The notes below the pieces were generated by a model that searched no databases, had not been told where the DNA came from, and saw only the letters and a program-made list of their open reading frames with translations. DNA of 24,133 bases from a virus, in the IMG/VR virus record IMGVR_UViG_3300010354_000640, positions 1 to 24,133 of that record. One strand, 5' to 3'. Of the stretch, positions 3 through 20,800 are shown piece after piece. Made by a program: the position numbers and the translations under genes. Numbering within the stretch: the stretch's first letter is position 1; each line of letters begins with the position of its first letter.

Positions 3-260
3 AATGACTCAAAAACCTCTAAGTACTCGAACGACCATAAGAGAAGAGTTTTCGTATATCTACATAGTATTACGAGAACTTTGGAGTATGGCGTGGAACA
101 GATAGACCATGTTATAATAGATTATAGTAGTCACGTTATATACGCCATGAGTAACTATGGAAAGCAGGTAAGAGTTCAGTTTCCGAACTACAATGCATTC
201 ATGCAAGGGATTCAGAAATGCTGTAACTGGCTTCCTGCGGAAAGAATACTAAGGTTCTGA
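3..260 (+). CDS. C-terminal part of an unidentified gene (left-truncated)
   Basis: An open frame enters from the left edge and ends at the TGA at 258-260, giving about 85 residues with no internal stop. The product is mixed in charge, with a basic patch near its start (DHKRR). It has several Tyr, Ile and Val residues, a CCNW segment near the end and the C-terminus PAERILRF. I do not recognise the family. The only competing frame, from the ATG at 4, stops after 33 codons, so this frame is preferred. The true start lies outside the window. It is followed by about 40 AT-rich bases and then the AbrB-like gene on the same strand. Confidence 0.55.
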   Translation, partial: NDSKTSKYSNDHKRRVFVYLHSITRTLEYGVEQIDHVIIDYSSHVIYAMSNYGKQVRVQFPNYNAFMQGIQKCCNWLPAERILRF

Positions 261-1925: not shown

Positions 1926-2318
1926 ATGCCCCAATTTAAGCAATTTAAAGACTTAAGCATAACATTTGACAAGCATCCTCAGAGCAGAGACCTTTTGGTA
2001 GTCAAGAATGAGAATGCAATCAAGATGGCTATTAAGAATTTAATAGTCACAATGAAGGGTGAAAGGTTTTTCAACAGTAGTTTTGGCACTTCTGTGTCTA
2101 ATCTACTGTTTGATAACATGGATTTTGGTATTGCTGGTCAGTTACAGAACGAAATTAGTCTTGCAATTGCCAAATATGAGCCAAGAGTTAATTTAACGAA
2201 CGTAACTGTTCTACCAAATTTTGATAACAATGGTTATGATGTAGAAGTTGAATTTGAAATCAAGGGCATTGATATCATTCCAACAAATATGGAATTCTTT
2301 TTAGAGAGAACTAGATAA
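1926..2318 (+). CDS. 25: baseplate wedge protein gp25
   Basis: This 130-residue protein is close to T4 gp25 in length (132). It carries the GPW/gp25 fold features: an N-terminal strand region, a helical segment beginning KNENAIKMAIKNLI, the GERFFNSSFGTSV turn after the first helix, and the YEPRV motif (about residues 83-87). The EPR motif is conserved in gp25 and sheath-initiator proteins of contractile machines. In T4, gp25 sits in the inner baseplate, contacts the gp6-gp7 bundle and seeds the first sheath layer. The start follows the late boxes at 1897-1916; only a weak AGAG lies about seven bases upstream. The gp6 gene starts one base after the stop, indicating co-expression. Confidence 0.95.
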   Translation: MPQFKQFKDLSITFDKHPQSRDLLVVKNENAIKMAIKNLIVTMKGERFFNSSFGTSVSNLLFDNMDFGIAGQLQNEISLAIAKYEPRVNLTNVTVLPNFDNNGYDVEVEFEIKGIDIIPTNMEFFLERTR

Positions 2319-2319
2319 C

Positions 2320-4125
2320 ATGCCATACGCACAACTCAACAATTTAGACTTCCAGCAGATAAAGCAGACGCTTAAGGATTATCTGAAAGCAAATAGTGCG
2401 AATGGTGACTTGTTAGATTATGATTATGAAGGATCTGTAATCAATAATCTACTGGATTTATTAGCGTATAATACTTATTATACGGCATTTAACACCAACA
2501 TGGTGGCGAATGAGGTATTTCTAGATTCTGCCACATTGAGAGATAACGTTGTATCATTGGCAAAGCAGCTGGGATATAGACCAAGATCAATAACCTCTCC
2601 GTCAACAAATATAAATTTCAATGTTGCTTTTGATGGAACTCCACCATCTTCAATTATTTTAAAAGCAGGATCAGCATTTACAACAATTTTTGATGATAGT
2701 GCATATCAATATAGTGTTATTGATGATGTAAGAACATCTGTAACAAATGGAGTAGCAGAATTTAGAGATGTATTCATAAAAGAAGGTACATACGTCACAA
2801 CAAGTTTCACAGTAAACGAATCTTCGACATCACAAAGATTTGTATTAAGAAATCAAGGTATAGATACTTCAACAATTAGAGTTAGAGTTTACCCAAGTCA
2901 AAATGACAGTAACTACACACTGTATCAAGCAGCAGATAATATTTTAAATTTAAACGCTCAATCTTTAGTATATTTTGTTAGCGAAATTGAAGATGAGCAA
3001 TATGAATTAATTTTTGGAGATGGTATTTTTGGAAGAAAATTAGAAAATAATGAATATATTCAAATAACATATCTGACAACCACTGGACCTGCATCCAATG
3101 GTGCAAATTCTTTTGTTTTCAATGGTATTTTGCAAGATGAAACAGGAAATATCTTCACGACAGATGTATCAATCGTAGGAGTACCAGAAAATACATCTGG
3201 TGGAGAAGATATTGAATCTATTAACAAGATAAAGAAAAACGCTCCTAAGCTTTATAGTGCTCAAGAAAGAGCAGTAACAAAAGAAGATTACGCTGCATTA
3301 GTTAGAAAATTATACCCTGCAACGTCAGACGTTTATGTGTATGGAGGAGAAGAAGAATTACCTCCAGAATATGGAACAGTAAAAATTGTAATCAAACCAA
3401 AAAATGCAGAATCTTTGACTCCCAGTACAAAGAAAAAAATTCTAGATGATCTGAAAAAATATTCAGTTGCCTCTGTGAGACCTTTTATCATAGATCCTTC
3501 AATTTTGTATATTGAATTGACAAGTAGAATTTTCTATAATTCTCTCAGTACCTCTAAAACAACGGAAGTTATTCGTTCTTTAGTAATAGAAGTTTTAGAA
3601 AATTATCTTTCAGTATCCGAAACTGAAAAATTTAATGGAAAATTCAGACACAGTAAAGCAGTCAGTGCAATTGACAATGCCGATCCTTCAATTACTAGTA
3701 ATTTAACAAACCTTAGACTCCGAAAAGATTTTTATCCAATTTTAAATACTCCATCTTACTACGAAATTTGTTTCCAAAACGTTCTTGATCTAGAATGTGA
3801 TGAATCTACCGTTTATAGTACTGGATTTGTTATTAGAGAGTATCCAAATGATATTGTATATTTGGAAGATAGATTTGGCGTGATGGTAATATATAAATTA
3901 GATTCTCAAACTCAACAAAAAGTTGTTTTAAAACCTGACGTAGGTTATGTGGACTATCTAAATGGAGAAGTCAAACTTTATGATATCACTATCATAAAGG
4001 GTTCATATTCAAACAACAAAATTGAACTCAGAGTTATACCAAAAAATAATGACATTCTTGCAAAAAGAGAATCATATTTAGATGTTGATATTTCTAAGAG
4101 CACTTTCACAGTAAGCCCAGAGTAG
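2320..4125 (+). CDS. 6: baseplate wedge protein gp6
   Basis: The protein is 601 residues (T4 gp6 is 660). The N-terminus has the helical block found in gp6: LDFQQIKQTLKDYLKA, LLDLLAYNTYYTAFNTNMVA and LAKQLGYRPRS. A beta-rich region follows. Around residues 290-395 lies a baseplate-J-like signature: SGGEDIESINKIKKNAPKLY, then AQERAVTKEDYAALVRKLYP. The C-terminal third is beta-rich. In T4, two gp6 copies per wedge pair with gp7 and join neighbouring wedges into the inner ring that holds the baseplate together. The start is set by the position right after gp25 and a GAGAG upstream. Its stop is four bases before the gp7-like gene, so gp25, gp6 and the gp7-like gene form one transcription unit. 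Nothing looks broken. Confidence 0.93.
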   Translation: MPYAQLNNLDFQQIKQTLKDYLKANSANGDLLDYDYEGSVINNLLDLLAYNTYYTAFNTNMVANEVFLDSATLRDNVVSLAKQLGYRPRSITSPSTNINFNVAFDGTPPSSIILKAGSAFTTIFDDSAYQYSVIDDVRTSVTNGVAEFRDVFIKEGTYVTTSFTVNESSTSQRFVLRNQGIDTSTIRVRVYPSQNDSNYTLYQAADNILNLNAQSLVYFVSEIEDEQYELIFGDGIFGRKLENNEYIQITYLTTTGPASNGANSFVFNGILQDETGNIFTTDVSIVGVPENTSGGEDIESINKIKKNAPKLYSAQERAVTKEDYAALVRKLYPATSDVYVYGGEEELPPEYGTVKIVIKPKNAESLTPSTKKKILDDLKKYSVASVRPFIIDPSILYIELTSRIFYNSLSTSKTTEVIRSLVIEVLENYLSVSETEKFNGKFRHSKAVSAIDNADPSITSNLTNLRLRKDFYPILNTPSYYEICFQNVLDLECDESTVYSTGFVIREYPNDIVYLEDRFGVMVIYKLDSQTQQKVVLKPDVGYVDYLNGEVKLYDITIIKGSYSNNKIELRVIPKNNDILAKRESYLDVDISKSTFTVSPE

Positions 4126-4129
4126 ATAA

Positions 4130-7100
4130 ATGAGCCAAGATAAAAAACTCTCCTTATTAGTAGATTCTCAACTTCCAAATTTTATTTCGGATGAATACGA
4201 GAATTTTGCTAAATTCATAGAAAAATATTACCAATACTTAGAGTCTACTGGTCAGTCACTAGACATTATCAATAATATAACAAAATATTATGATATTGAT
4301 TTTTATGATGATAAGAATACCGCATCATCAACAACTTTAACAGGTAGTATAACTGGCTCATCTACTACTATTAATGTTGCATCTACTCTAGGATTTCCAA
4401 AAAAAGATGGTTATATTCAAGTAGGAACTGAAGTAGTTTTCTATAAGGAAAAAACTGCTACAAGTTTTACAGGTTGCTATAGAAATATTCGAGGAACAAC
4501 CAAATTAGGTGATTTATATCACACTAATGATTTTGCTACAGTGGCGAATGGAACAGTTGGTATTGGTATGCCACATTCCCCTGGAGAGATTGTCAACAAT
4601 TTAAGCACTCTATTTTTAGACGCTTTTATCAAGAATTTTGAAAAGCAATATCTAGCTGGATTCCCAGAAAAAAATTTAAAAGAAGCAGCATCAAAAAATT
4701 TATTAATTAGAAATATTAATAAATTTTACCAATCAAAAGGTTCTGAGTATTCTTTCCAATTTTTATTCAATACTGCAGTAGAAACGCAAGATGTTGATGA
4801 TGTTCCGACTATCTTGTATCCAAGAGATAACACCATTAAGTTATCTGGTGGAGAGTGGGTAAACAAATATGTATTACAAGTTTCTGTTATCTCTGGAGAT
4901 ATTACAAAACTTGTTGGTCAAAAAATAGAAGAAGTAAGTAGTGATAATTATGCAACAGCTATTGTAGATACTGTTTACTATTCTGGAAAGCAAGATGGTA
5001 TTGATTTATATGAATTAACTCTATCCGATTCTACAGTAGTTGGTAATTTTTCACTTTCTTCAAAAACAAAATTAACGTCAAATTTACCATCCACAAATGG
5101 AGATGGCGAAAAAATTGATGTATTTTCTACATTTGGATTTTCTGGCGAAGAAATTATAATTGGTGGGGAAAAAATCACAATAAATGATAAAAATGTAAAT
5201 CAATTTACTATTTTACAAAGATCAACAAACGTCACTCATCTTTCTGGATCTGTAGTTTTTTCAAAACCAGTTTTAACTGGATATTATGAAGATAACAATG
5301 GAGATATACAGCAAGTATCACTAATTACATTAGGTTATCTGTATGATGTTGATACTTCTGGATCTGTTCCGTATTTAAAATCTGGCGATAGATTGAATAT
5401 TGATAATGCAGGATCAATAATTTCATTTTCTCTGCCATATTTAAATTTTATCAACGAAAATAACACTAGAGGCAGTGTTTCTGGAAATTCACAATTATTA
5501 GATGACGTAAACGCTAATATTTCTGGAGTTTATGAAGATTCTCAATATTATTATATTGCTTCTTCTGGATTTCCTTCCCATACAATAGGTCCATTTTCAT
5601 TATCTTCTCCTCAAGATCAAAAATTACTTAAATTAATTAGAAAAATACCTTCAGTTACATCTGACATTTATCCAACTCCAAATTCTGATGTTGGTATATT
5701 TGCAAATGGAGTAAGAGCATATTCTTATAAAGATACAGAGAAAATTATATACGGAAATGTAGAATCTATCACTGTAACAAATTCTGGAACGTCATATCAA
5801 AATCCACCATTTGTTTTAATTGAAGGAAATGCTACTGCTACGGCTATTATGTCTGGTCAGTATCTAGATCATATTGAAATAACAAATTCTGGATCAAATT
5901 ATGAACAAGATCCTGTTGTCACAATAACATCGGGTAGAAATGCTGTAATTACAGCCACAGTAACTGGAGATAGAGTAACTAGATTGAATATTATCAATCC
6001 AGGAGAATATTATTCTACTCCACCAACAATTATTATCAAAGATTCTTCTGGCAGAGGTAAATTTGCGGAATATACAGCAAATATTTCTACAACTGGGCAA
6101 ATTATTAGTTTTAATAAAATTAGTGAAGGAAAGTTTTATAGTCAAGACAATATTTCTGTAGAAGTAGTTGCTGTTGGAAAAGGAGCAACAGCAATTGCTT
6201 CTGTAAAAAGATGGACTAAAAATAGATATGTAAAATTAGCATCTTCTTTGGATTCTAATTATGGTTATTATTTTAATAATGTTGATACTACTTTAGGATA
6301 TGGATATGGGTATGTCGGGAATCCAAAAGCATTACGAGTATCTTTACAAGATAATTTGAATGCTAATTTTACCGTTCCTGGAACATTAGTTCATTCAAAA
6401 ATTCTAGGATATGCTTATGACGGCAATCCTATTTACGGTCCTTATGGATATTCGAATCCATTGAATCCAAGTTCTTCTATTATTAGAATGACCAGTAGTT
6501 ATTCGTTGAACACTAGCAGAACTGGAGGTCCATCACAACCTTTGGGAACTTTTATTGAAGATTATCGTTATGTTCATAAATCAGGCACTTTAGATGAGAA
6601 CAATGGAAGGTATTGCATAACTCCAGAATATCCAAATGGAGTATATGCATATTTTATTACCATAGATTCTTCAAATAATCCTGTTTTCCCATATTTAATT
6701 GGAGAAAACTTCTATAGCCTCCCAGTTTCGCTAAACTACGAAAATAAATTAAGTCAAGATGATCTCCCCAAAAATGTAACCAGATTAAAAACACCGAATA
6801 CTCCAGATAATGGTTTAGATTTTTCTGTATTTGTCAATTCTGTAAATTCGGGTGGAATTGATACAGTGAATGTAGTATCATCTACAAATAATTTTGCAGT
6901 TGATTCTAAAGTATACTTAAATGATTATTTGGAAGAAAATTCTGCTTTGTTAAAAGTTTCTTCTTTGAAGGGAAAGACAGTAAGTAGTATAAAATCACAA
7001 CAAACTAAAATTATTAAAATAGCAACCAATAATATTGCATATTTTTATAATGGTGATACTATTACACAATCAACTTCTGGAGCTATTGGTACTGTAGTTG

Positions 7101-10100
7101 GAGATGTTTTTGATGCCAGAGATTTAGTAATTGAAACTTCATCGGGTACATTCACCAATACAAATACAATTAGTTCAAATAGAACTATAGAAAATTTAGT
7201 ATTAACTACACAATCATCTTTTTCGAGAGATTCTGAAATTTATTTGACAAATGGAAAACAAGCAGTAATTGAAAATATATCATCCAATACTTTAAACGTT
7301 TCGTTAAATTCTTTTAGTAATAATGATCCTATTGTTTTCTCAATCAATTATTCTAATATTTCGTCAAGTCAAATATATTATGTAAAAAATGCGACCTTAA
7401 CATCATTCCAAATATCTACAACTCCTGGTGGATCTACAATTACTCTAACAAGTTCAACAAGTCCAGGATTAGTAGCACTAAGCGAAAAAGCTAGAGGAAA
7501 AGTTTTACAATCAACCAATCGCCAAAATACAGTAAAAGTAGAACTAATTAGAGGATTGTTTAGTGTAGATTCAAACTATTATATTGCAAGTCCAACTTTA
7601 TCAAATACAGTTGGTTCTCAGATAACAGATAAAGTTTCCTTAAGTAAAAATATTGAAATATTTTCTCTTGATAGAAATGTTGCCATGGTTACAACTACAG
7701 GAGATCATCAGTTATCTTTAAATGATGAAATTAATATTGATATTTCTCCAAATGATACCAACACAACAACAACATATTATGTAAGGAAGAGAATACACCA
7801 AAAAGCTTTATTGATACAACCAACTTACAGTGGAAAATTGGTAGACACTGGAATAGGTAATGGTAGAATATTAAACAGAGGTTCAAATTACGCTAATAAC
7901 ACCTATACTAATGTTGAATTAATTTTTGCTGATCCATCTCTTTCTAGAGATGCTTATGGAAAAGTTGTAGGTAATACTGCAAATGCTGTAATTGGATCGG
8001 TAGGAAATATTAATAACGCAAAGGCAACTATTTCAGTTTCGTCAAATAAAGTATCCACTATAACTATCACAACAAAAGGAAAAGGATACAAGAGAGGCGA
8101 TATACTAACGGTAGTTAGATCATCCTTGAATGGAACAGCAACAACAAATTACCCATTTATATTTGAAGTGGTACATGTTGGATTTGCTGATGGAGAAACT
8201 CGTTTATTCGTTGATAATCTAGATAATTTATCAAATGATGATTATTTACAGATAAATGATGAAATAATAAAAATTACTGCAGTTGGTTCAAACTACATTG
8301 ATGTTTCAAGAGCTCAAAATGGAACATCTTCTACAAATCATTCAGATGGTGCCAATTTGACATTGGTAAATCCACAATACAGATTAAATGTAAATTATAC
8401 AATAGGATCTGGTACTGGTTCGCCAACTGTTCTTTCCTACGATCCAGAATCTAGTATTTTAAACGTTGTTTATCAAACATCACAAACTCTTGCTACCATA
8501 AATCCATTAAATAGAACCGTCTTTTTCTTAGATCAAAGTACACCAGCAAAAGTTGTTTCTGTAAGTACAGAATATGATTCTGAATATAATTTTGAATTTT
8601 CAAAAGGATCTAGTTCTGGACCATGGATTAAAAATCCCATAATAGAAGTTCAAAAATTCTATAAGTATAAATTTGATACCAGTAGCAGTACATTATCTGG
8701 ATCATACTTAGAATTTTCTCCAAGTATAAACAAAAATATAATTACTATAGAGCAAACTACAAATTTAGCTCCAGGCACCTTTGGAGCATATGTTGATGTT
8801 AAATTTGGATACGGAGATAGAAGAACATCAAATACTTATACAACTAAATTGCCGTCATCGTATGTAAATTATTTTTATTACGACAAAAACAATATTATTA
8901 AATCTGAAAATTCTTATCTGACAGTTATTGATGATCCGCTTCAAGGAAATAAAAATGTAATTTATCGAACACCAAATAAATTTGTTTATTCTGTTGATAC
9001 ATTACCACCATATGATGGTTCTGGAGCAATTACTTATAGCACGACTTCTAAAAGTGCATATGGCAACATCAACTCTGTAAGTATTGCTAATTTTGATGAT
9101 AAGTACGAATCATTACCAGAAGTAATAGCAGCAGAAGTATATGAAGTTAATAGAGCAGTTATTGAAGTAGATTGGAATAAAAATCGCCAATCTATAGAAA
9201 ATATAAAAATTGTTAGTGGAGGATTGAATTACACTTCTCCAGTTTTAATTATCAAAGGTGATGGCAAAAATTTTGCATATGAGATTGTTAAAAATTCTGA
9301 TGGGTCAATAGCTTCAATTAATGTAATTAATCAAGGATCTGGATATACATATCGTCCAGAGATTACTGTTTGTGAATCTCAGATTGATTTAAAACTAGAA
9401 AGTTCTAGTATTGGAACAGCAAAAACTTTGAAAATTTTAAATAATGGTTATGGTTCATACAATGATAAATCATTGAGACCTATTGTAAAATCTCCCTATA
9501 TTTTGACGCTAAAAAACTACATTAGTGGAGGAATTATCAATGGAGAAAATATTGAACAATATGAAAATAGTACACTAATAGCATCTGGAGTTGCTTATAC
9601 GAATTATGGCAACAATATCATTAAAGTAACTGATGTTATTGGTAGTTTCAAAGAAAATTTACCGATTATTGGAAAATCTAAAAAATCTTCATATGTTGTC
9701 TCTAAAGTTTCTGTTTCTGATTTTGTCACTGATATCAGACCATATTACAACAACCAAGGAAAATATGTTTCTGATAAATCTTCGTTAAACTCAGAATCTC
9801 AAAAAATAACAGATTCTTATTATTACCAAGATTATTCTTACGTTGTAAAATCAAGGACATCTATTGAAAATTGGAGAGATTTAGTAAAATCTACTACACA
9901 TCCAGCTGGATTTAATCTATTTTCTCATATGGACATTGAATCTTCTGGAGATTCTTCAATGTCTTCGACTCCAGAACCAAGAGAGATAGTAAGTGTAATA
10001 CAGTTGTGGGATGACACTAAAAATAGAGTCACAGTACAATCATCTAAAATAACATCAACCTATACTATTGTAAGGTTATCAGATTTAGATACTGTAGCAG

Positions 10101-12736
10101 GAAAAGGAAGCGTTATTGCCTCTTCATTTGATAGCAGTGAGATAACTTCATTTGATATTAGATTAACTCCAGATTTTAATGGATATTTTGGATCTGATGG
10201 TAATAGAGTAGGTACAACCACTTTTACCATGCTTCTAAGCGGTTCTAATACACCATATGCTTTACCAAGAAATGAAAATATTGTTATATCTTTAGATGGC
10301 ATCGTTCAAGAACCAGGGGTTGCATATACTATAACTGACACACAAATTACTTTTAACGATCCGCCACTTGGATATAGAAACTTAGAAGGAGATGCTATTC
10401 CTTTTGCTTCTTATAGAGAGGGTATTGATACTCCCCCACAAAAATTTATCGGAAAAACCATAAGATTCAAAGATCCTGGCACCAATGATCAGTTGTTTAG
10501 AAAAATAAAAAGTATATCTGCTCAAATAGATGGTTTAACAGACACATTTAATTTATATTATACAGATAACACCCCTGTCGATTTATTGAGTGGAGAAAAT
10601 TTATTAGTATCTATAGACGGCATTATTCAATTAGCTGGTTTCACTCCTTTAATTCCTATCGATAGAGCATACTATATCAGAAGAAGCGTTGTACCAAATC
10701 AAATTGTTTTTAGAGAACCACCTGCAGTAGATTCAGGAATAAAGCAGAATTTCTTTGCATATTCGATAGGTTCGTATGAAAGGATAGGTATCGATGAAGA
10801 GAATATAGATGGGGTATCTGGACCATTTAGAATTTTCTCATCAGTCACTGGAAGAACTATAACATTAGATGACGAAAGAAACGTTTTGGTTTTTTCTGAT
10901 GGAGTGCTGCAAAAAAGAATTAAAAATTATAATTTATCGAGTTCTTCTATCACATTCACGGAACCATTGAAGAAAAATCAAAAAATTAACATCATACATT
11001 ATTATGGAAAAGACCTAGAAAAATCCTTGCTAGCGTTTAACTTTGATTATGATGCATTTTTAAATTCATACGAAATGGTTCTGACTGGTAATAGATCATT
11101 GGGAGTATATGATGTTTTGACCACTGCAAGTGGAGCAAGAGCACTTGTAAAATCAATTAAATATAATCAATTTGTCAATAGAACTTATGTCGATGTTGTT
11201 TCGCAAAATGTTTTATTAAATACAACAGATAACATCACAGTAACTAATCAAATTACGGGTTCTGTATATACAATTAATAGTGCAGATATAGTTGCTATTC
11301 AAAATATTTTAGAAGATGATGGATTATCTATTTTAGAAAGAACACATGGTTATCAGCACAGATTTGCAGGTACTTTAAAATTCCAACCATCGACCGATTC
11401 GTTCATTAAAAAGGATGACTACATTCGTGTTCATGGTGAAGATGATTTTAGATTAGTATTAGGAATACCAAAAATTGCAAAAAGAACACAGTGTAGAATA
11501 AACGATGATTTATCTGCATCTTATTTTGGAAAAATTAAAGTATCAAATTATAATAAAGATGGAAGAGGCGAAAAATTAGAAGTAATACCAACTATACAAA
11601 ATGGTTCTGTAGTATCATTGTCATGGAATAAACCAGATTGGCCAAATTATGCCACTCCTGGTTTTGGATATGAAACTGCTCCAATGTTACATTTTGTTTC
11701 TCAACCTATAAGAAATGATAGTGGAGAAGTAGTATCATCGGCTGTTGGTGGAGGTGCTTCTGCAAAAGTAATACTTTCATCCAGTGGTGATGTTGTTGAT
11801 ATAGTTTTAACTAATGGTGGCAGTGGTTATCTGACTCCTCCAAAAGTTTATGTTGCAAAAAAATACGATTTAAAGAAAACTAACAGACGTGTTCATGTTA
11901 ACAATTTTATTAGATCATATGAATCAGAACTTGCAGCATATGCATCAGATACTTCTTATCTGGAATTAACGTTCCCTGGTGTCGTTGATGAATCGGTTAG
12001 AATTGTTCTGTTTGCTGATACTGGAATAACTGATGCTACAAAAGAATATGTTAGAATTTTCCAATTACCTTATGCTAGTGGAATTATTGAAATTGATAAA
12101 CAATTAGAAAGATCATTCTCTACATTTGCAGATGTCAGCGCACCAGATAATTCAATTTATGTTTGTGATAGAATTAGGTTATCAGAACCTACTATAACAT
12201 TTGATTTGACAGAAGAAACAATATTCAGTCAAGAATTTGTAGTAGGTGTGATTGATACTACTTTATTAAACATCACAAACAAATATAGCGGCAATGTTCT
12301 AGGACAAACTTTTAGAGCATTTTACGATATAACAGATATGGACAACGGTTATGCTGCAGTAAGTGGTTTGAGCATTTATGATATGAATTTTACATACCCA
12401 GGATTAACTATCGCTATGGTTGATGATGCTTTTAATAATGGCGAATTCAACACTTTAAAAGTTCCTCAATCCAATATTCCATTCTCATATACATATGGTT
12501 CAATTCAAGAACACATGACTAGACTTACTAGTTCTGTAGGAACTACTGATAATACCCTTTTTGTTCCAAATACATCAAGATTCCCAGCATCTGGAGTTAT
12601 TTTATTAGAAGATGAATTAGTTTATTATGGAAATAAATTGAGTGATCGTTTCAGAGACGTAATACGAGGTTATAATGGTACAATAGCGAAAACTCATGCT
12701 GCAGGAGCATATATTAGAACAATAGTACAATCTTGA
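4130..12736 (+). CDS. 7: giant gp7-like baseplate wedge protein (2868 residues)
   Basis: It occupies the gp7 position between gp6 and gp8 and is nearly three times T4 gp7 (1032). Blocks that I align by eye to the C-terminal third of T4 gp7 occur in order: FAKFIEKYYQYLES (about 26-40), FYQSKGSEYSFQFLF (about 198-213), LVGQKIEEV (about 260), and SYVVKSRTSIENWRDLVKS with HPAGF (about 1898-1928). Between them lie inserted modules: a beta module at 66-135, Gly-Tyr beta repeats (about 540-700, 1240-1330, 1690-1780), and a YHYH-like domain (about 745-870). After HPAGF come three or four repeats built on 'DGIxQ' (about 2047-2300), another Gly-Tyr repeat (about 2540-2580), and a final module (about 2790-2868) resembling the one at 66-135. 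In T4, gp7 forms the wedge core with two gp6 chains and reaches to the periphery. The reading frame is intact. Gene identity as gp7 is an inference from position and motifs. Confidence 0.8.
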   Translation: MSQDKKLSLLVDSQLPNFISDEYENFAKFIEKYYQYLESTGQSLDIINNITKYYDIDFYDDKNTASSTTLTGSITGSSTTINVASTLGFPKKDGYIQVGTEVVFYKEKTATSFTGCYRNIRGTTKLGDLYHTNDFATVANGTVGIGMPHSPGEIVNNLSTLFLDAFIKNFEKQYLAGFPEKNLKEAASKNLLIRNINKFYQSKGSEYSFQFLFNTAVETQDVDDVPTILYPRDNTIKLSGGEWVNKYVLQVSVISGDITKLVGQKIEEVSSDNYATAIVDTVYYSGKQDGIDLYELTLSDSTVVGNFSLSSKTKLTSNLPSTNGDGEKIDVFSTFGFSGEEIIIGGEKITINDKNVNQFTILQRSTNVTHLSGSVVFSKPVLTGYYEDNNGDIQQVSLITLGYLYDVDTSGSVPYLKSGDRLNIDNAGSIISFSLPYLNFINENNTRGSVSGNSQLLDDVNANISGVYEDSQYYYIASSGFPSHTIGPFSLSSPQDQKLLKLIRKIPSVTSDIYPTPNSDVGIFANGVRAYSYKDTEKIIYGNVESITVTNSGTSYQNPPFVLIEGNATATAIMSGQYLDHIEITNSGSNYEQDPVVTITSGRNAVITATVTGDRVTRLNIINPGEYYSTPPTIIIKDSSGRGKFAEYTANISTTGQIISFNKISEGKFYSQDNISVEVVAVGKGATAIASVKRWTKNRYVKLASSLDSNYGYYFNNVDTTLGYGYGYVGNPKALRVSLQDNLNANFTVPGTLVHSKILGYAYDGNPIYGPYGYSNPLNPSSSIIRMTSSYSLNTSRTGGPSQPLGTFIEDYRYVHKSGTLDENNGRYCITPEYPNGVYAYFITIDSSNNPVFPYLIGENFYSLPVSLNYENKLSQDDLPKNVTRLKTPNTPDNGLDFSVFVNSVNSGGIDTVNVVSSTNNFAVDSKVYLNDYLEENSALLKVSSLKGKTVSSIKSQQTKIIKIATNNIAYFYNGDTITQSTSGAIGTVVGDVFDARDLVIETSSGTFTNTNTISSNRTIENLVLTTQSSFSRDSEIYLTNGKQAVIENISSNTLNVSLNSFSNNDPIVFSINYSNISSSQIYYVKNATLTSFQISTTPGGSTITLTSSTSPGLVALSEKARGKVLQSTNRQNTVKVELIRGLFSVDSNYYIASPTLSNTVGSQITDKVSLSKNIEIFSLDRNVAMVTTTGDHQLSLNDEINIDISPNDTNTTTTYYVRKRIHQKALLIQPTYSGKLVDTGIGNGRILNRGSNYANNTYTNVELIFADPSLSRDAYGKVVGNTANAVIGSVGNINNAKATISVSSNKVSTITITTKGKGYKRGDILTVVRSSLNGTATTNYPFIFEVVHVGFADGETRLFVDNLDNLSNDDYLQINDEIIKITAVGSNYIDVSRAQNGTSSTNHSDGANLTLVNPQYRLNVNYTIGSGTGSPTVLSYDPESSILNVVYQTSQTLATINPLNRTVFFLDQSTPAKVVSVSTEYDSEYNFEFSKGSSSGPWIKNPIIEVQKFYKYKFDTSSSTLSGSYLEFSPSINKNIITIEQTTNLAPGTFGAYVDVKFGYGDRRTSNTYTTKLPSSYVNYFYYDKNNIIKSENSYLTVIDDPLQGNKNVIYRTPNKFVYSVDTLPPYDGSGAITYSTTSKSAYGNINSVSIANFDDKYESLPEVIAAEVYEVNRAVIEVDWNKNRQSIENIKIVSGGLNYTSPVLIIKGDGKNFAYEIVKNSDGSIASINVINQGSGYTYRPEITVCESQIDLKLESSSIGTAKTLKILNNGYGSYNDKSLRPIVKSPYILTLKNYISGGIINGENIEQYENSTLIASGVAYTNYGNNIIKVTDVIGSFKENLPIIGKSKKSSYVVSKVSVSDFVTDIRPYYNNQGKYVSDKSSLNSESQKITDSYYYQDYSYVVKSRTSIENWRDLVKSTTHPAGFNLFSHMDIESSGDSSMSSTPEPREIVSVIQLWDDTKNRVTVQSSKITSTYTIVRLSDLDTVAGKGSVIASSFDSSEITSFDIRLTPDFNGYFGSDGNRVGTTTFTMLLSGSNTPYALPRNENIVISLDGIVQEPGVAYTITDTQITFNDPPLGYRNLEGDAIPFASYREGIDTPPQKFIGKTIRFKDPGTNDQLFRKIKSISAQIDGLTDTFNLYYTDNTPVDLLSGENLLVSIDGIIQLAGFTPLIPIDRAYYIRRSVVPNQIVFREPPAVDSGIKQNFFAYSIGSYERIGIDEENIDGVSGPFRIFSSVTGRTITLDDERNVLVFSDGVLQKRIKNYNLSSSSITFTEPLKKNQKINIIHYYGKDLEKSLLAFNFDYDAFLNSYEMVLTGNRSLGVYDVLTTASGARALVKSIKYNQFVNRTYVDVVSQNVLLNTTDNITVTNQITGSVYTINSADIVAIQNILEDDGLSILERTHGYQHRFAGTLKFQPSTDSFIKKDDYIRVHGEDDFRLVLGIPKIAKRTQCRINDDLSASYFGKIKVSNYNKDGRGEKLEVIPTIQNGSVVSLSWNKPDWPNYATPGFGYETAPMLHFVSQPIRNDSGEVVSSAVGGGASAKVILSSSGDVVDIVLTNGGSGYLTPPKVYVAKKYDLKKTNRRVHVNNFIRSYESELAAYASDTSYLELTFPGVVDESVRIVLFADTGITDATKEYVRIFQLPYASGIIEIDKQLERSFSTFADVSAPDNSIYVCDRIRLSEPTITFDLTEETIFSQEFVVGVIDTTLLNITNKYSGNVLGQTFRAFYDITDMDNGYAAVSGLSIYDMNFTYPGLTIAMVDDAFNNGEFNTLKVPQSNIPFSYTYGSIQEHMTRLTSSVGTTDNTLFVPNTSRFPASGVILLEDELVYYGNKLSDRFRDVIRGYNGTIAKTHAAGAYIRTIVQS
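4325..4535 (+). repeat. beta module copy 1 in the gp7-like protein
   Basis: This encodes about residues 66-135. The pattern is a Thr/Ser-rich lead, TINVASTLGFPKKDGYIQVG, a strand with TEVVFY, then CYRNIRGTTKLGDLYH. The final module of the same protein has the same order: LFVPNTSRFPASGVILLEDE, LVYYG, VIRGYNGTIAKTHAAG. Partial copies occur near 8190-8370 (IQINDEII-like then RAQNGTSSTNHSDG) and 5100-5270. The repeat is seen at protein level only; the DNA has diverged. Confidence 0.6.
6370..6730 (+). other. YHYH-like domain inside the gp7-like protein
   Basis: This encodes about residues 747-866. It carries HSKILGYAYDGNPIYGPYGY, then RYVHKSGTLDENNGRYCITP, EYPNGVYAYFITID and FPYLIG. The YHYH family has the order 'G.A.DG.PIYGP.GY ... 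LD..NGR...TPEYP.G.Y.Y.....D..FPY..G', and every element is present. The 'YHYH' itself is replaced by YAYF. The biochemical role of the family is not known to me. Confidence 0.8.
10270..11020 (+). repeat. DGIxQ beta repeats in the gp7-like protein
   Basis: Three clear copies and a looser linker region encode about residues 2047-2297. Copy 1 has IVISLDGIVQEPGVAYTITD with ITFNDPP. Copy 2 has LLVSIDGIIQLAGF with IVFREPP. Copy 3 has VLVFSDGVLQKRIKNYNLSS with ITFTEPL. The shared pattern is 'xVSLDGIxQ..g..Y.....I.F.epP'. This motif is common in phage fibre and baseplate proteins, where it makes small beta domains. Confidence 0.65.
12500..12733 (+). repeat. beta module final copy in the gp7-like protein
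   Basis: This encodes the last 80 or so residues. It shares the 'GFP..G.I...E.V.Y......RG..GT....H..G' order with the module at 4325-4535, which interrupts the N-terminal gp7-like blocks. Having one copy near each end makes it a candidate linker or docking module rather than part of the wedge core. Confidence 0.55.
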
Positions 12737-12792: not shown

Positions 12793-14793
12793 ATGCCAGC
12801 AATTATCTCTGAAAAATTCAGAATTTTTAATGCAAAACAATTTATTGAGTCTTTATCGGAAGGTACGCCATCTGGATCTGCAGGAGATTCTTCGGCAGAT
12901 AGAACCAGATTATATTTCTTTTTAGGAAGACCTCAACTTTGGAAAGGTTATATTGAAATTTATAACCAAAACAACCAACTTTTTACAGTAGGAATGACCG
13001 TCACCAATGGTTCATTTACCGCCACTGTTTCTGAAGTTTATCCTAATTCACTTTTAGTTACAGGTATGACAGTTGGAGTTAATCCAACTGTTGGAGGAAC
13101 TTTAACTGGTACTGGAGGCACGCCACCAACCGCTAAAATTGGTTCTTGGAGATATGCCTCTGAGGATACTCCAGCTACTCCATACGATTCACAAGAAGAG
13201 AAATATCATGTTTACGAAGACATGATTGCTCTAAAAAGAATTGATTCTACCAACGTAAGACACGTAACTAGGAGATACAATTATAGTATTGCAGTCAATC
13301 CTAAATTTGACATGTGGAGACCAGATTATTCTACTGGCAGACTTACAGCAACTGGTCAATCTTCGTTGTCTTCTGGCAAATATTTTGTTATGAACAGCGT
13401 ATATGAAGTATTTGCTTGCGTTTTTAATGGCACTAGCGTAACTAATCCAACAGGAACTAATATCAACGAAGAACCTATTACATCTAGTGCAAACTATACT
13501 GGCGGTTTTTATACTCAATCCGATGGGAATTACAAGTGGAAGTATATGTATACTATCCCAACTACTGATGTTATCAAATTTGTCTCTTCTGATTTTATTC
13601 CTGTTATTATTGATCCAACCATCTCTGCAGCTGCAGTAGCTGGAAAAATTGAAGCAGTGGTTTTACGCGATGCTGGAACTGCTAGTACTTTTGCCGCAAA
13701 CCGAGTAATTTCTGTCAACCCACTATATGCAGCTATTGTTGGGGATGGGAGTGGCGGTATTGTTAAATTTGGCACAAATGCAAATGGTCAAATAAATGCT
13801 GTTGCAGTTCATGCTGGCGGAAGTGGATATACATATGGCAATGTTTTACTTCAAACTGGTTCTAGTGGTGTAGGCGTATTCACTGATGCATCACTATCTA
13901 CTCCTTCTACAGTAACTACAGTTTCGTCAGGTGGCGTAGGCAATATTGAAGCAATCATTCCACCTCAAGGTGGATATGGTTCTGATGCAATTATTGAATC
14001 TGGCGCCAAGCGAGTAATGATGAATGTTAGATTGGAAAATCTAGAAGGTGTTGGTGATTTCCCAATTGATAATGATTTTAGAAGAATTGGCGTAATCCAA
14101 GATCCCCTCCAATTTGGCACTACTTCTTATTACACTAATCCAACTGCTTCTCAATTAAGAGCTATTAAATTGACCAGTGTTTCTTCTGGTAATTTTGGAG
14201 TTGATCAAATTATTACTCAAGGTACTGGAAATACACAGGCAAAAGGAACTGTAGTTTCTTGGACTTTAGATGATGGCAGTACAAACTCTGGAATTCTAAA
14301 ATATTACCAGTCATCTGAAATTCACACAGTAAATGGTAAGGTAAACGCCTTCACCAGTGGTGGTGGTATTGTTACAGAAAGAGATTCTGCAGGAACTGCT
14401 GTGAGAACAGCAAGTGTTGACACCACATATGGAACTGTAGGAAGTTCTAGCGCATGGGCAGCAAGTACATCTGTTACATTGAATGCGTTCATTACGGCAA
14501 ACGTCACCAGCAATATTGCTGGTCAGGGAACTATAACCCAAACAATTACCTATAAAGTAACTTCAGCTGGAACAACTGGAACTGCTGCTCCTACTCATAC
14601 TTTTGGAGCAGCAACAAATGGTACTGCGACATTAACTGTCTATGAACCAGTGTTGGGAACTAACTATACAGCTGGATTATCTGATCCTGAAATTAGATTA
14701 AACTCTGGAGAAATTATCTATATAGAAAATAGAAGATTAGTAGCAAGAGCTGCAGACCAGATTGAAGATATTAAATTAATTATTGAGTTCTGA
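12793..14793 (+). CDS. 8: baseplate wedge protein gp8 (expanded)
   Basis: The protein is 666 residues against 334 in T4. Conserved blocks are all present in T4 order: SEKFRIFNAKQFIESLSE with YFFLGRPQLW (5-50), MIALKRIDSTNVRHVTRRYN (about 138-157), NYKWKYMYTIPTTDVIKF (about 246-263), IGVIQDPLQFG (about 432-442) and the C-terminus LNSGEIIYIENRRLVARAAD then IEDIKLIIEF (about 636-666). The last block aligns well with the remembered end of T4 gp8 (SGEMIYMENR...DQTEEINILF). The extra length lies in three insertions, roughly 55-120, 275-400 and 445-630, which contain Gly-rich beta repeats like those in the neighbouring giant proteins. T4 gp8 is a dimer on the wedge that binds gp7, gp10 and gp6. The start has a good GAGAG ribosome binding site and late promoters upstream. 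Confidence 0.93.
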   Translation: MPAIISEKFRIFNAKQFIESLSEGTPSGSAGDSSADRTRLYFFLGRPQLWKGYIEIYNQNNQLFTVGMTVTNGSFTATVSEVYPNSLLVTGMTVGVNPTVGGTLTGTGGTPPTAKIGSWRYASEDTPATPYDSQEEKYHVYEDMIALKRIDSTNVRHVTRRYNYSIAVNPKFDMWRPDYSTGRLTATGQSSLSSGKYFVMNSVYEVFACVFNGTSVTNPTGTNINEEPITSSANYTGGFYTQSDGNYKWKYMYTIPTTDVIKFVSSDFIPVIIDPTISAAAVAGKIEAVVLRDAGTASTFAANRVISVNPLYAAIVGDGSGGIVKFGTNANGQINAVAVHAGGSGYTYGNVLLQTGSSGVGVFTDASLSTPSTVTTVSSGGVGNIEAIIPPQGGYGSDAIIESGAKRVMMNVRLENLEGVGDFPIDNDFRRIGVIQDPLQFGTTSYYTNPTASQLRAIKLTSVSSGNFGVDQIITQGTGNTQAKGTVVSWTLDDGSTNSGILKYYQSSEIHTVNGKVNAFTSGGGIVTERDSAGTAVRTASVDTTYGTVGSSSAWAASTSVTLNAFITANVTSNIAGQGTITQTITYKVTSAGTTGTAAPTHTFGAATNGTATLTVYEPVLGTNYTAGLSDPEIRLNSGEIIYIENRRLVARAADQIEDIKLIIEF

Positions 14794-14830: not shown

Positions 14831-17800
14831 ATGCCACAGAAGACAAATCTAAGCGTACCTCCATATAATGATGATTTTGACTCATCAAAAAACTTTTATA
14901 GAGTTTTATTCAGACCAGGATATTCAATTCAATCTAGGGAATTAACAACACTACAGTCAATTCTCCAATCTCAAATTGAGAATTTTGGCAAAAACTTATT
15001 TAAACAGGGGGACATGGTTGTTCCTGGTGAAGTAGGTTTTAACAATTCATTAAATTATGTTAAATTATCTTCCGTTTCCGATGTGGCATCTGCAGATGCC
15101 ACTGGAAATATTATATTTGAAAAATATAATATTAAAAATTTGATAGGATATGATATTAAAGGATTATCTTCTGGTGTAGTTGCTTCTGTTGTGGCGGCAG
15201 AACTTGCTAATGAAAATGAAAGTGATATTTTATTTGTAAATTACAAAAATAGCGGCAATTCTAATAACGAAAAAACTTTTAGACAAGGCGAAAGATTAGA
15301 AGTAGTAGATTTGTCAAATAGTCCTATTTTAACAGTAGGAACTGATGGTAGTGCATTACCAACCACAATTATTAGATATGATGGAGAAACTGGAGAAGCA
15401 TTGTCCCCAATTACCAGCAAAGCAATGGGGGTTGCTTCCGCCATTAAAATACAAGAAGGAATTTACTTTATTAATGGAACATTTGTAAGGAATAATGAAG
15501 AAATAATTGTCATAGACAAATATTACAACAAACCAACATGCAACATTGGTTTTAACATTGAAGAATCAATTATCACTCCAGAGGAAGATTCTTCTTTATA
15601 TGATAATGCTAAAGGATTTTCAAATTATTCTGCACCAGGCGCACACCGTTTAAAAATTGAGTTATCTTTACAAAGTTTTAATTTTAACGAAAGTTATAGC
15701 AGTAATTTTGTAAAGCTTTTATCAATCAAAAATGGTCAAGTCGAAACTCTTGTAAGACAAACAGATTATAATTTAGTACAAGAGATTTTATCAAAAAGAA
15801 CTTTTGATGAGTCAGGAGATTATGTAGTAGATAATTTCTCTATAGATTTAAGAGAATATTATCAATCAACAACTAATAAAGGAGTTTATTCTGCAAATTC
15901 TAATAATATTGTTAATGATAAGTACACAATAAATGAAGCAACTTCAAAAATGGTTGCTGGTATTGGTACTGGAAAAGCATACATCAAAGGTTATGAAATT
16001 ATTAATAATGATTTAAAATACCTAGAAGTAGAAAAAGCTAGGGATCTTTTCTCTAAAGATAATAATAGAATTAAGGTTAAAAATATACCTTCATATAATA
16101 TCACCAATGTTTATAATTCAATTTCATTAAATTCAGTAGGTCAAGATTTAATTTCTTATCCTACTTTGTATCTCAATGGTGTTTTTAACGACGGAACTTT
16201 AGGATTTAATAATACAGAAACTGTTACAAATTACAAGCAAACAGTTGATCGTAGAGGAAAGACATTTAGTTTAGACGATGGCATAAAAACTATATACATT
16301 CAATTGGGATCTGGAAAACAAGGACCGTTACAAAATGCTGATGGTACTACTAATTTAACTAGTTATTTTAGTCCATCTTCTAACGCAACATATGGAGTTG
16401 ATTATCCTGCGCTTTGGTATATAAAAACAAGAGGAACAGGAGTAAACACCACAACAACAGCAAATCCAATTGAAATCATTGCATTTAATAATATTAGTAG
16501 ACCAGATATTACATCAAATACTCTCATAGAGCTCACAGTAAGAGGAAACAAATTTGATTTGCAAGAGTTATTAGTAGAATATGATGATGAAGATGTAAAT
16601 AGTACAGCACCACAAACTGCTTTAAGAAGAAGAAAATTATTCTTAGAAAGATCCAATGCTACTAGCAATACCGATTATTGGGGATACATCGTCGATTATA
16701 ACGAAGTAATAACTCCCATTGTTGGACTATCAAAGCCAAAGAATTTTTCTTTCTTAGAGAAAGGAGTTGGATTTAATTCTGATAAAGATAAAATTATTTC
16801 AAAAGGAAGATTATCAGACGGAACTGCATCATATAATTCTATCTTTAGTCTTTCTTATTTCAACCCAGTATTTTTTACTAGAATTACAGTAGATACAAAA
16901 ATAACAACTGGATTTGAATCTGGAAAATATGTTACAGGTGCTACTAGTGGAGCATATGCAGTAATTGAAAATGCTCAGGGTGGAAGTTACTCTTTACCAA
17001 ATAGCACTATGCTTTTTGTGCGTATGCTATCTGGTAGATTTGTAGATGGAGAAACTTTGATTGATGAAGCAGGAAATTCGTTAAAAATAGCAAAAGAAAA
17101 TACAATTTCTCATTTTATTGTAACCAAGCGAGGAACTGGTTTTAATGCTACTAATAATAGCACAAGAATAAAAATAAATGGGGAACTTATATCATCTTCA
17201 GCTGTAGACGTAAAAATAGATACAAATAACGCAAATTCTATATACGCTGTCAATATAAAAGATAAAAATTTATTATCACAAGAATATCTATATCCACCAA
17301 CTATTCAACCCGTTGATATTACTTCCAGTGCATTAAATACAACTGCATTAATAGAACCTGTTTTATATAGAAATACAATATACTATTATACTGATAATGA
17401 TGTAAAATCTATCACTTCCCAAATAGGTTCTGCATATAAATTTACCTGCGATGTTGATTTATCAACTAATGGTTATTATAATTCTGAAAGTGTAACTAAT
17501 TTTATTTTTATTGGAACTGCGGGCAATAAGTATCTAGAATGCCAAGGATTTTCTGGAGATGCTACCCTGTTCTTGAAGCAAGGAGATATTATTCAATATA
17601 CTGATGTAAACAATAAAGTAATAAGATCTATAGTTCAATATGCAACTAAACCACAAGGATTATTAAAGACAAGAATATATTTAGATTCTGCATTACAAAA
17701 TAACGTTTCTAGTAATGTATTGAAAATTTTTACAAAAGTAGAAAATTCAAATAGTACTTTATTAATTCCTTCAGGATCTCAGTATTTAAAATCAGTTGTA

Positions 17801-20800
17801 GTATCTAATTCAGATTCAAAAATTTCTTATTTCTCCAGAAGAGATTTTATTGTATCTGCTTCTTCCAGTGGAGGCACATTAACATTTAGAGCAGAGCTTC
17901 AATATGGTACTCAAACTTTTGCAGAATATTCAGAAAACAATTTCTTACTGACTGTATTGAATAATGGATATCAAACAGGAGCAGTTACAGATATTAACAA
18001 TGGAGATATCATTTATATTGATAAAGATTGGGTAACAATTCAAAATAGCACAGATCTCTCTGGATTAACAGCAGGAACTGTTACAATTAATATTCCTTCC
18101 AGTTATTTTGGAACTGGATTAAATTATACTAATTTAAAGTTAAAATTATCGGCAACTTTAAACACATCTAAAGCATTGCCAAGAATTAAAACTTTAGTAG
18201 AAAACAAAAGAATTACAATCAATTCTTCGGGAGACAAAATTATTATCTTGAGAGGTCAAGATTTTGATACTGGAGCTCCAGATATATTATCTTATTCTGA
18301 TGCCATAAAAGTAAAATACATTTATGAAGGAACTGCTACATCTGCTCCAACTGTTAATGATAATGGAGATTTAATTGACGGTAAAGATTTAACTGAACAA
18401 TTTACATTTGATGATGGTCAAAGGGATACTTTCTACGACGTTTCTAGAATTGTTCTAAAACCAGGATATGATTCTCCAAAAGGAGTTTTACTAGTATGCT
18501 TTGATTATTTTGAGCATTCTCAAGGTGATTTTTGCACGGTAGATTCTTATCTGCATGATTCAGGAGTTTCAATAACAAAAATTCCTGAATTTAATTCATC
18601 TGTTTTAGGTAAAATATCTCTTAGAGATGTGATTGATTTTAGACCAAAAGTTGATAGCACTTCTATATTCAGTGGATTTCAAAATAATAGTTTAGTAGCA
18701 CAATCCAACTATTCTTCTTTCAACGGATCTGGAGGAGTATTTTCTTCAACTCCTGCTCCAGATGATAATTTAGATTACACTATAACTTTCTCATCTACCC
18801 AATATTTGGATAGAATTGATGTCGTGTCTTTAGATAAGGATGGTAACTTTAGTATTACTAAGGGAAATTCTTCTTTAAATCCAGTAAGACCAGATATCAA
18901 AAAAGATAGTTTGCCGTTATATTATATTTACATTCCATCATATACAAATGATGTAAATGATGTCAAGATAATTCCCGTGAATAATAAACGTTATACAATG
19001 AAAGATATTGGAAAATTAGAAAAACGTTTAGAAAGATTGGAGAATTACACTTCTCTGACCGTATTGGAACAACAAGCATTAAATATGCAAATTAGAGATG
19101 AATTGGGATTTGAAAGATATAAAACTGGATTTGTTGTTGATCCCTTTGATGCTCATTCTCTAGGAAATTTAACGTCTCAAGATTATTTGTGTTCTATAGA
19201 TCCACAACAATCAGTTCTGAGACCACAAACTATTGTTTCGAACGTAGAATTAAAAGAATTAAATGTCACTGAAGATCAAAGAACAACAAATAACTACAGA
19301 AATAGCAATGGTATAGTTACCTTACCTTATACCAGTTTAAAAACTCTATCAAATAAATTTGCTTCTGACACAATAAATCCAAATCCATTTGTAGTTTTAC
19401 AATATGTTGGGGATTCTAGTTTGTCACCTTCTTTTGATCAATGGTATGATGATGAGCAAAAACCATCTATCTTGAATAATGATAATTCCTTATACTCTGT
19501 GTTCTATGCAAATTCTTCTACAAAATCAGCATTTAATTCGATTTATAATTTTTATTTGACTAACTGGGTAGGAGTAGATAAAGTTTTTTATACTAAATCA
19601 TCACTAAATCTTTTATCAAAAGATACCGCAACGACTACAATTAAATTATCTGAAGTTTCTAGTTCTTCAAATATAAGTCCTCAAAATACTGAATTACCAA
19701 GAAATGTCAATATTGTAAATATTTCTGATAAATCTGTCGTAACTTCTGTAAACTTATGGTGCAGAACTAAACCAGTATATTTTAAATTATCGCGTTTAAA
19801 GCCAAATACAAAATTATATGTTTTTGTTGATGGTATAAACATTAGCAGATGGTGTGCTCCAGATTACAAATTTACATCAATTCCAGGAAATTCTGTTAGT
19901 TTCTTTGGAAATGAAATAATTACTGATGCTAATGGTAATGCAAGTGGTTTACTACTTATTCCATCTGGTCACCCTCCAGTAGAGGGATCAGAATGGAAAT
20001 CTGATATTAATTTATTGGAATACGATACATCTTCTCCCCAAGTTAATTTATCAGTAGGAACAAAAACTATCAAGTTTGTGTCTGATATAAGTGGCAATAA
20101 ATCTATTGCAGATACTTTCACTGAAACGAAATATTATGTTACAGGAATAATTCCTCCCTCTATTTCTACCATAACATCTACTGTTCCACCTATTTTTAAA
20201 TCTGAAGAGGGAATACAAACTACTGAAACATCAAAGACAACATTAAAACCAAATCCTTTATCACAAACTTTTAAAGTAGAAAATTACGAAGGTGGAGTTT
20301 TCATGACAGGCGTAGATCTTTTCTTTAGTCAGAAAAGTTCTACATTACCAATTAGAGTTTATTTGACAAATACAGAATCTGGAAAACCTGGAAAATATAT
20401 TTTACCAGGATCAGAATCAGTAAAGTATCCATATACACACCTCAAAATTTATACAAATGGCACTGTTAACATCAACAAAAATGAAATAGTAACTGGAGTA
20501 AAATCTGGAGCATTTGGACCAGTATATTCGGTATCTGACAAGAATGGAATTGATTTAACTGCATCAATTGATGGACAATATACTTTAGAAGCAGATCAGG
20601 TATATACTTTAGTATTAAGTGATTATAATGGTGTTAATTTTGTACAAGATGAAGATTTAACTATCCCATCTGTTACCACATATAATGCAAAAAACAATAC
20701 TGATTTGCAAGTTAGTATTGCAAAAGATTCAGGAAGAATTAGCTCTCTGAAAATTGAGAATACTGGATCCAATTATGAAACTTTATCATTAACTATTGAA

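Follow-up and report, generated by a model that had tools for sequence, protein, structure and literature searches.

A giant gp7-type baseplate wedge protein with an interrupted core in a virus genome fragment

Background

A stretch of viral DNA of 24,133 nucleotides (IMG/VR record IMGVR_UViG_3300010354_000640, positions 1 to 24,133; hereafter the window) holds, between genes of the gp6 and gp8 types, an open reading frame of 2868 residues. This locus raises the question of whether a protein of such size is the phage baseplate wedge subunit gp7 and, if so, how its core is arranged.

Several gp7-type proteins were described previously. In the available excerpts of the respective reports, gp17 of Vibrio phage XM1 is a 242-residue ortholog of T4 gp7, the N-terminal helices of which join the gp6-type dimer in the core bundle, while two regions without resolved structure lie in the tail-spike density (PMC10457771); the gp7-like part of AlgoCIS Alg12 is in contact with fibres and is described as a re-engineering hotspot (PMC8894135); and loops 1 and 2 of the T6SS protein TssG each anchor a TssK trimer (PMC6300606). 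In an excerpt of Sullivan et al. 2010, gp7, gp10 and gp12 are described as so divergent that they fall into up to nine clusters, among the non-cyanophage core genes (PMC3037559).

Results and discussion

Genomic context of the giant ORF

The gene order in the window is gp25 type, gp6 type, the 2868-residue ORF, gp8 type and a 2721-residue ORF, and reading frames run off both ends of the virus record; all features given here, in window positions, are on the plus strand. The gp25-type gene (1926..2318) for a baseplate wedge protein or sheath initiator matches PF04965 GPW_gp25 (46.6 bits) and phrog_261. It is followed by the gp6-type wedge subunit (2320..4125; phrog_219, 642 bits; PF21379 and PF21871 above cut-off), the expected partner of a gp7 core. 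The giant ORF (4130..12736) has an ATG start and no internal stop, and the gp8-type wedge subunit (12793..14793) matches phrog_438 (488 bits) and PF09215 (38.2 bits). Thus, the giant ORF occupies the position immediately downstream of gp6 within a gp25-gp6-gp7-gp8 cluster, as expected of a gp7-type gene.

At the DNA level, the window has two matches among phage records, both of them short. A tblastn search with the giant protein found 471 phage records, of which 459 have Synechococcus, Prochlorococcus or Cyanophage in their names, and identity was below 60% at the best place in each record.

The ORF after gp8 (14831-22996) belongs to phrog_358, of unknown function, and contains at residues 1970-2043 a stretch similar to module B described below; ORFs annotated as 'virulence associated' follow gp8 in S-PM2 and S-CAM1. 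In S-PM2 and Syn1, an extra virion gene, T4-GC 827 (L018:18148-18675), separates the giant gene from gp8; the corresponding gap in the window is only 56 bases.

Direct comparison with T4 gp7

The preliminary description of this DNA had placed four blocks resembling T4 gp7 in the giant protein, in the T4 order. The motifs are found at residues 199 (FYQSKGSEYSFQFLF), 261 (LVGQKIEEV), 1897 (YYYQDYSYVVKS), 1915 (WRDLVKS) and 1924 (HPAGF), and their T4 gp7 counterparts FYSTKG, LVGQ and HPVGF at 734, 781 and 884. Thus, the distance from LVGQ to HP.GF is 1663 residues in the window protein vs 103 in T4 gp7, which bears out the claimed separation of about 1,600 residues between the third and fourth blocks.

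Profile-profile comparison, the check suggested in that description, was carried out by hhalign, with 19 overlapping tiles cut from an alignment of nine window-family proteins compared to five T4-family gp7 proteins, and with the same 19 tile profiles reversed as the control. Four of the tiles matched above noise, all at the expected places and in the T4 order. Tiles 1-300 and 151-450 align window residues 196-222 and 196-266 to T4 731-756 and 731-786 (E 2.1e-4 and 1.6e-4), and tiles 1651-1950 and 1801-2100 align residues 1902-1933 and 1902-1934 to T4 862-893 and 862-894 (E 6.8e-3 and 6.4e-3). The best matches of the other 15 tiles were each at E 0.1 or worse, and those of the reversed controls at 0.19 or worse. 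Both core regions therefore match T4 gp7 in the order described; the direct block 4 match does not by itself survive correction for 19 tiles and is supported by its position and by the relatives presented below.

Combined with the alignment and HMMs, these matches delimit three core pieces. Block 1, which is helical (residues 1-59; 4130..4306), corresponds to the part of T4 gp7 that starts near residue 642; BLASTP aligns window 4-37 to T4 642-675, a match that is not significant alone. Block 2 with the domain-V-like block 3 extends from residue 158 to about 316 (4601..5077), and its residues 196-266 correspond to T4 731-786. Block 4 comprises residues 1876-1945 (9755..9964), of which 1902-1934 match T4 862-894. 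As in T4 gp7 (PDB 5IV5/5HX2), the core blocks stand in the same order and the genes follow the order gp6-gp7-gp8; the difference is that about 640 residues precede the core in T4, whereas the window protein starts at the core. In agreement with the earlier remark that the N-terminal two thirds of T4 gp7 have no visible equivalent, none of the 19 tiles had its best match above noise in T4 gp7 1-640. The Pfam domains Gp7_helical, Gp7_5th and Gp7_6th, all three of them present in T4 gp7, were not detected in the window protein at E 0.1, and it is not a full-length gp7 of the T4 type, as defined by the 1-640 region together with these three domains.

Other searches with the window protein gave less. 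Pairwise BLASTP against T4 gp7 was not significant (best E 0.14), a single-sequence search of the PDB was uninformative, and NCBIfam has no match for the window protein, the SRB7757 protein or T4 gp7. PF23786 Baseplate_wedge scores 23.4 bits in the window protein, in block 4 only and below the cut-off of 27, and 19.7 bits in the S-PM2 giant protein, again in block 4 only. Three PHROG families (phrog_26741, 2885 and 17744) are common to T4 gp7 and the window protein.

Relatives that connect the giant ORF to gp7

Since the direct tile matches are modest, intermediates were sought. In SRB7757 and phiOC, compact proteins of 586 and 631 residues, respectively, are encoded directly after gp6. They match T4 gp7 at 644-897 and 644-924 (E 1.2e-7 and 6.4e-9), and PF23786 exceeds its cut-off in both (28.6 and 45.1 bits). 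By profile comparison, they also match the N-terminal piece of the window protein (E 5.7e-14 and 1e-13) and its block 4 piece (E 1.9e-17 and 1.4e-12); blocks 2 and 4 of this same core are just 43 and 35 residues apart in SRB7757 and phiOC. In Cr30, pf16, RHph, DLP6 and Melnitz, both window parts were matched at E 6.4e-8 or better, and the matches to T4 gp7 are weak (E 1.1e-4 to 6.2e-3).

A profile was then built from 48 IMG/VR sequences whose inserts are short or middling; 32 of them have both blocks and 16 the N-terminal part only, and T4 gp7 is not included. PF23786 is found in all 48 at E 0.01. Among 177,635 PDB sequences, this profile ranked T4 gp7 first (E 3.6e-11, profile 12-270 on 646-911) and the gp7 of another phage second (9f4a, E 4.2e-8), the next match being at 0.071. 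An N-region profile of 12 giant-type and 7 other proteins placed the same two gp7 sequences first in the PDB (E 3.2e-4 and 3.3e-3; next 0.032). For block 4, a second-round profile of 85 distinct non-T4 segments was searched over 686 ORFs, and all five T4-family gp7 proteins were its top non-members (E 0.0019-0.048; next 1.1).

In each of seven cyanophage genome records, the large gene that follows gp6 is the only one hit by the short-insert core profile at E 0.001 or below. Core matches are confined to one gene each in all ten named phage records searched, the window itself covering only part of a genome; in S-CAM1, one core match reads across a stop just upstream of the gene. At the level of sequence, INTERMEDIATES (relatives such as SRB7757 and phiOC) settle the gp7 identity, and the giant ORF is almost certainly a gp7 homologue, the core of which is interrupted by 1,579 residues.

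Two annotations among the relatives deserve mention. The protein of 896 residues in Melnitz-2 annotated as 'hypothetical protein' (L016:9518-12208) is a gp7 homologue (PF23786, 40 bits) with an insertion of about 100 residues just after the first helices, at a position unlike that of the cyanophage module. In phiOC, the product annotated as 'T4-like gp7' (L017:6121-8004) occupies the gp6 position just before the gp7 homologue and joined the gp6 profile, so that its label looks like a misannotation.

Insertion sites and size range in the family

HMMs for blocks 2 and 4 were run on the 686 ORFs of the gathered loci. Block 2 was found in 113 ORFs and block 4 in 103, all of which hold both; five of the ten ORFs with block 2 alone are the T4-family gp7 proteins. 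With the window included, 104 proteins hold blocks 2 and 4, 91 of them distinct by block sequence. All 104 contain block 1, and in every one of them block 2 precedes block 4; because core patterns served to collect the loci, with the best 80 of at least 488 relatives taken in the largest scan, the sample is not random and the constant block order is partly selected. A gp6 gene lies directly upstream in all 97 loci with enough DNA (six were too short), and also in the window by PHROG and Pfam.

Between blocks 2 and 4, the 91 distinct proteins have 15 to 2,648 residues (median 270), with 29 proteins under 100, 7 at 100-199, 36 at 200-399, 6 at 400-999 and 13 at 1,000 or more. Insertion at this site is family-wide, and the window insert (about residues 317-1875, 1579 residues between HMM block ends; 5078..9754) is toward the large end of the range.

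A smaller insertion of about 98 residues (residues 60-157; 4307..4600), identified by alignment and HMM, separates blocks 1 and 2. It is the extra module claimed in the preliminary description, and it recurs across the giants: of the 13 distinct giant proteins, 12 have a gap of 90-102 residues between these blocks, and the S-RIM2 protein (L024:6-19142) has one of 598. The site is empty in six of the seven relatives from phage records with short or middle inserts, the seventh, Melnitz, having about 100 residues placed differently. The median gap is about 0 in 79 proteins (near-copies included) with a main insert below 400, and the maximum, 103, is that of Melnitz.

In a midpoint-rooted tree built from 130 columns of block 2 only, the 13 giants fall on one side of one branch (support 100/96, and 100% of 200 bootstrap trees). 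They adjoin Melnitz and a further relative, L069, with weak support.

Contents of the insert and of the C-terminal region

Two repeated modules were recognised by profile searches. Module A, of about 75 residues, occurs within the smaller insertion (residues 66-142; 4325..4555) and again at 2795-2868, where it ends the C-terminal region; a similar copy at 1348-1424 (8171..8401) was found only with the profile of the C-terminal copy (E 9.7e-7). Module B, of the GxxYxxPP type (residues 541-650; 5750..6079), recurs at 1644-1755 (9059..9394; E 1.1e-7), with weak matches at 991-1063 (0.003) and 2530-2587 (0.002). P-SSM2, S-RIM2, S-PM2 and the 2721-residue ORF of the window (0.00099) contain it as well, and Melnitz matches weakly (0.02). 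The module searches gave nothing below 0.05 in two shuffled controls, T4 gp7 or SRB7757, nor in gp25, gp6, gp8 and the partial last ORF of the window.

The insert also contains a YHYH-family domain (residues 723-847; 6296..6670; PF14240, 99.5 bits), which is likewise matched in the S-PM2 giant protein. The C-terminal region after the core (residues 1946-2868; 9965..12733) found no T4 counterpart with the hhalign tiles against T4-family gp7.

Structure models

The model of a compact relative of 340 residues (L035) is of middling quality (pLDDT 67.9, pTM 0.38). Foldseek ranked gp7 chains first to third for this model (E 9.4e-9 to 4.2e-6; next 0.25), and VIA-align of residues 1-301 against gp7 gave Z-scores of 8.5, 8.0 and 6.9 at an rmsd of about 16 A; at this rmsd, the local fold order agrees with gp7, and domain packing is not established. 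The other VIA-align rows were mostly part-matches near model residues 129-251, many to translation-factor domains, at Z 5.0 or less.

The model of window residues 1-1190 is poor (pLDDT 46.6) and shows, at low confidence, a helical N-terminus and otherwise mostly beta structure. In the PDB, nothing matched it at E 0.001 or below, and the best match was a phage tail tube (E 4.3e-3). Its 64 viral-library matches at E<=0.001, some of them labelled as baseplate wedge or cyanophage structural proteins, were set aside, as TM-scores were <=0.2 relative to the query in the rows listed.

Named and unnamed giant proteins

The finding is partly anticipated by existing gp7 annotations. The P-SSM2 protein (T4-GC 107, 5195 residues), already named gp7 in GenBank, has the same split core with an insert of 2168 residues at the same site; it is larger than the window protein and about 29% identical to it in the N-terminal region. 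The still larger S-RIM2 protein (6378 residues), already named 'similar to gp7', carries an insert of 2648 at this site, again within a split core. S-PM2 and Syn1 represent the window's own subfamily (T4-GC 826; 3048 and 3274 residues, inserts of 1515 and 1513), and their proteins are annotated as hypothetical or virion structural proteins, without the gp7 name. One RefSeq relative, from S-H9-2, is labelled baseplate wedge subunit.

In the available excerpt on the S-SZBM1 structural proteome, a 'baseplate wedge initiator', S-SZBM1_208, is given with the figures 724.20, 6619, 71 and 13.5%, read here as kDa, residues, peptides and coverage, and a second protein of the same name has 615 residues (PMC9146016). 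Since S-SZBM1_208 is part of that proteome, giant proteins of this name appear to be virion components.

No description of the split-core anatomy was found in the open-access literature searched, among the matches listed. Likewise, among the matches listed there, no cryo-EM of T4-like marine cyanophage baseplates was found; A-1(L) and Pam3 appear, which are simpler phages.

Proposed architecture and alternative explanations

What is directly established is that the pieces are homologous to T4 gp7, along with their order, the site of insertion, its size spectrum and the gp25-gp6-gp7-gp8 order. On this basis, the ORF encodes gp7, the subunit that would form the baseplate wedge core with two gp6. 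Its own core amounts to about 300 residues and is divided into three pieces (1-59, 158-316 and 1876-1945), with a module of about 100 residues between the first and second and about 1,580 residues, apparently mostly beta, between the second and third. The chain would exit the core after the domain-V-like region, form a peripheral arm built partly of repeated modules, and return, with block 4 then completing the core next to gp6. By analogy with other gp7-type proteins, the arm would probably dock peripheral or fibre proteins and transmit their movement to the wedge. We consider this reading likely as a whole. That the core closes on itself despite the insert is very probable, and for the insert being an arm that docks other baseplate or fibre proteins the chances appear even. 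The latter proposal draws on XM1 gp17, the gp7-like part of AlgoCIS Alg12 and T6SS TssG, which contact spikes, fibres and TssK, respectively, and were compared through their published descriptions.

The insert may instead be mainly an enzymatic or host-surface domain, such as a YHYH-type hydrolase carried on the wedge. This would fit the PF14240 match in the window and S-PM2 proteins and the G-(Y/F/W)-A-(Y/F)-D-G-N-P-I-Y-G stretch kept in all eight giant proteins checked, and YHYH domains are predicted to be tail-associated metal-dependent hydrolases in an excerpt of one report (PMC7824862). However, the YHYH tetrapeptide is absent from the window domain and from all eight giants, and the domain accounts for about 125 of some 1,580 insert residues, which makes a mainly enzymatic insert improbable. 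Somewhat less probable still is that block 4 packs in the neighbouring wedge or elsewhere, with the insert as a bridge between wedges: 1,580 residues could reach the next wedge, but the same blocks are 15 residues apart in the shortest relative, which favours packing within one subunit.

The insignificant BLASTP match to T4 gp7 and the label of the best PHROG match (phrog_4406, 'head and packaging, virion structural protein') could suggest an unrelated virion protein with chance or mobile-motif resemblance to gp7. Against this stand the tile matches, the compact relatives, the block 4 ranking, the PDB-wide profiles, the constancy of block 1 and gp6, and the restriction of the short-insert core profile to the large gene after gp6 in the cyanophage records, and such a coincidence is highly unlikely. 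An assembly artefact or a fusion of frames, conceivable for a 24-kb virus record whose outermost reading frames are truncated, has a negligible probability, given that 59 of the 471 matching phage records cover at least 80% of the protein in one place and that named phages have giant relatives annotated as single genes.

Conclusions

The idea that the T4 N-terminal domains were replaced by others after the core is not supported, since the compact SRB7757 and phiOC proteins also start at the core. Among the ten named phage records, PF07880 (T4 gp9/gp10) was found in two, T4 and S-RIM2, and PF08677 (T4 gp11) in T4 alone; neither was found in SRB7757 or phiOC, although divergent members could be missed by this search. 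As these families were not found with a compact gp7 either, their absence does not go hand in hand with the giant insert. It looks as if a small core was extended twice and independently, by the N-terminal part in T4 gp7 and by the insert in cyanophages. The results suggest a minimal gp7 core of about 300 residues, to which the N-terminal gp7 domains of T4 would have been added in that lineage.

The T4-GC 826 group of S-PM2 and Syn1, unnamed in those genomes, is assigned to gp7. One loop is pinned down as a strong insertion hotspot that accepts inserts of 15 to 2,648 residues. A more speculative and rather doubtful extension is that the segments of a three-piece core come together over separations of more than 1,500 residues, with six arms, each up to several thousand residues long, radiating from one baseplate, and that gp7 of this lineage, through module duplication at one permissive loop, may take on peripheral roles divided among several proteins in T4. 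The proposed architecture supplies a concrete prediction for cryo-EM of cyanophage baseplates.
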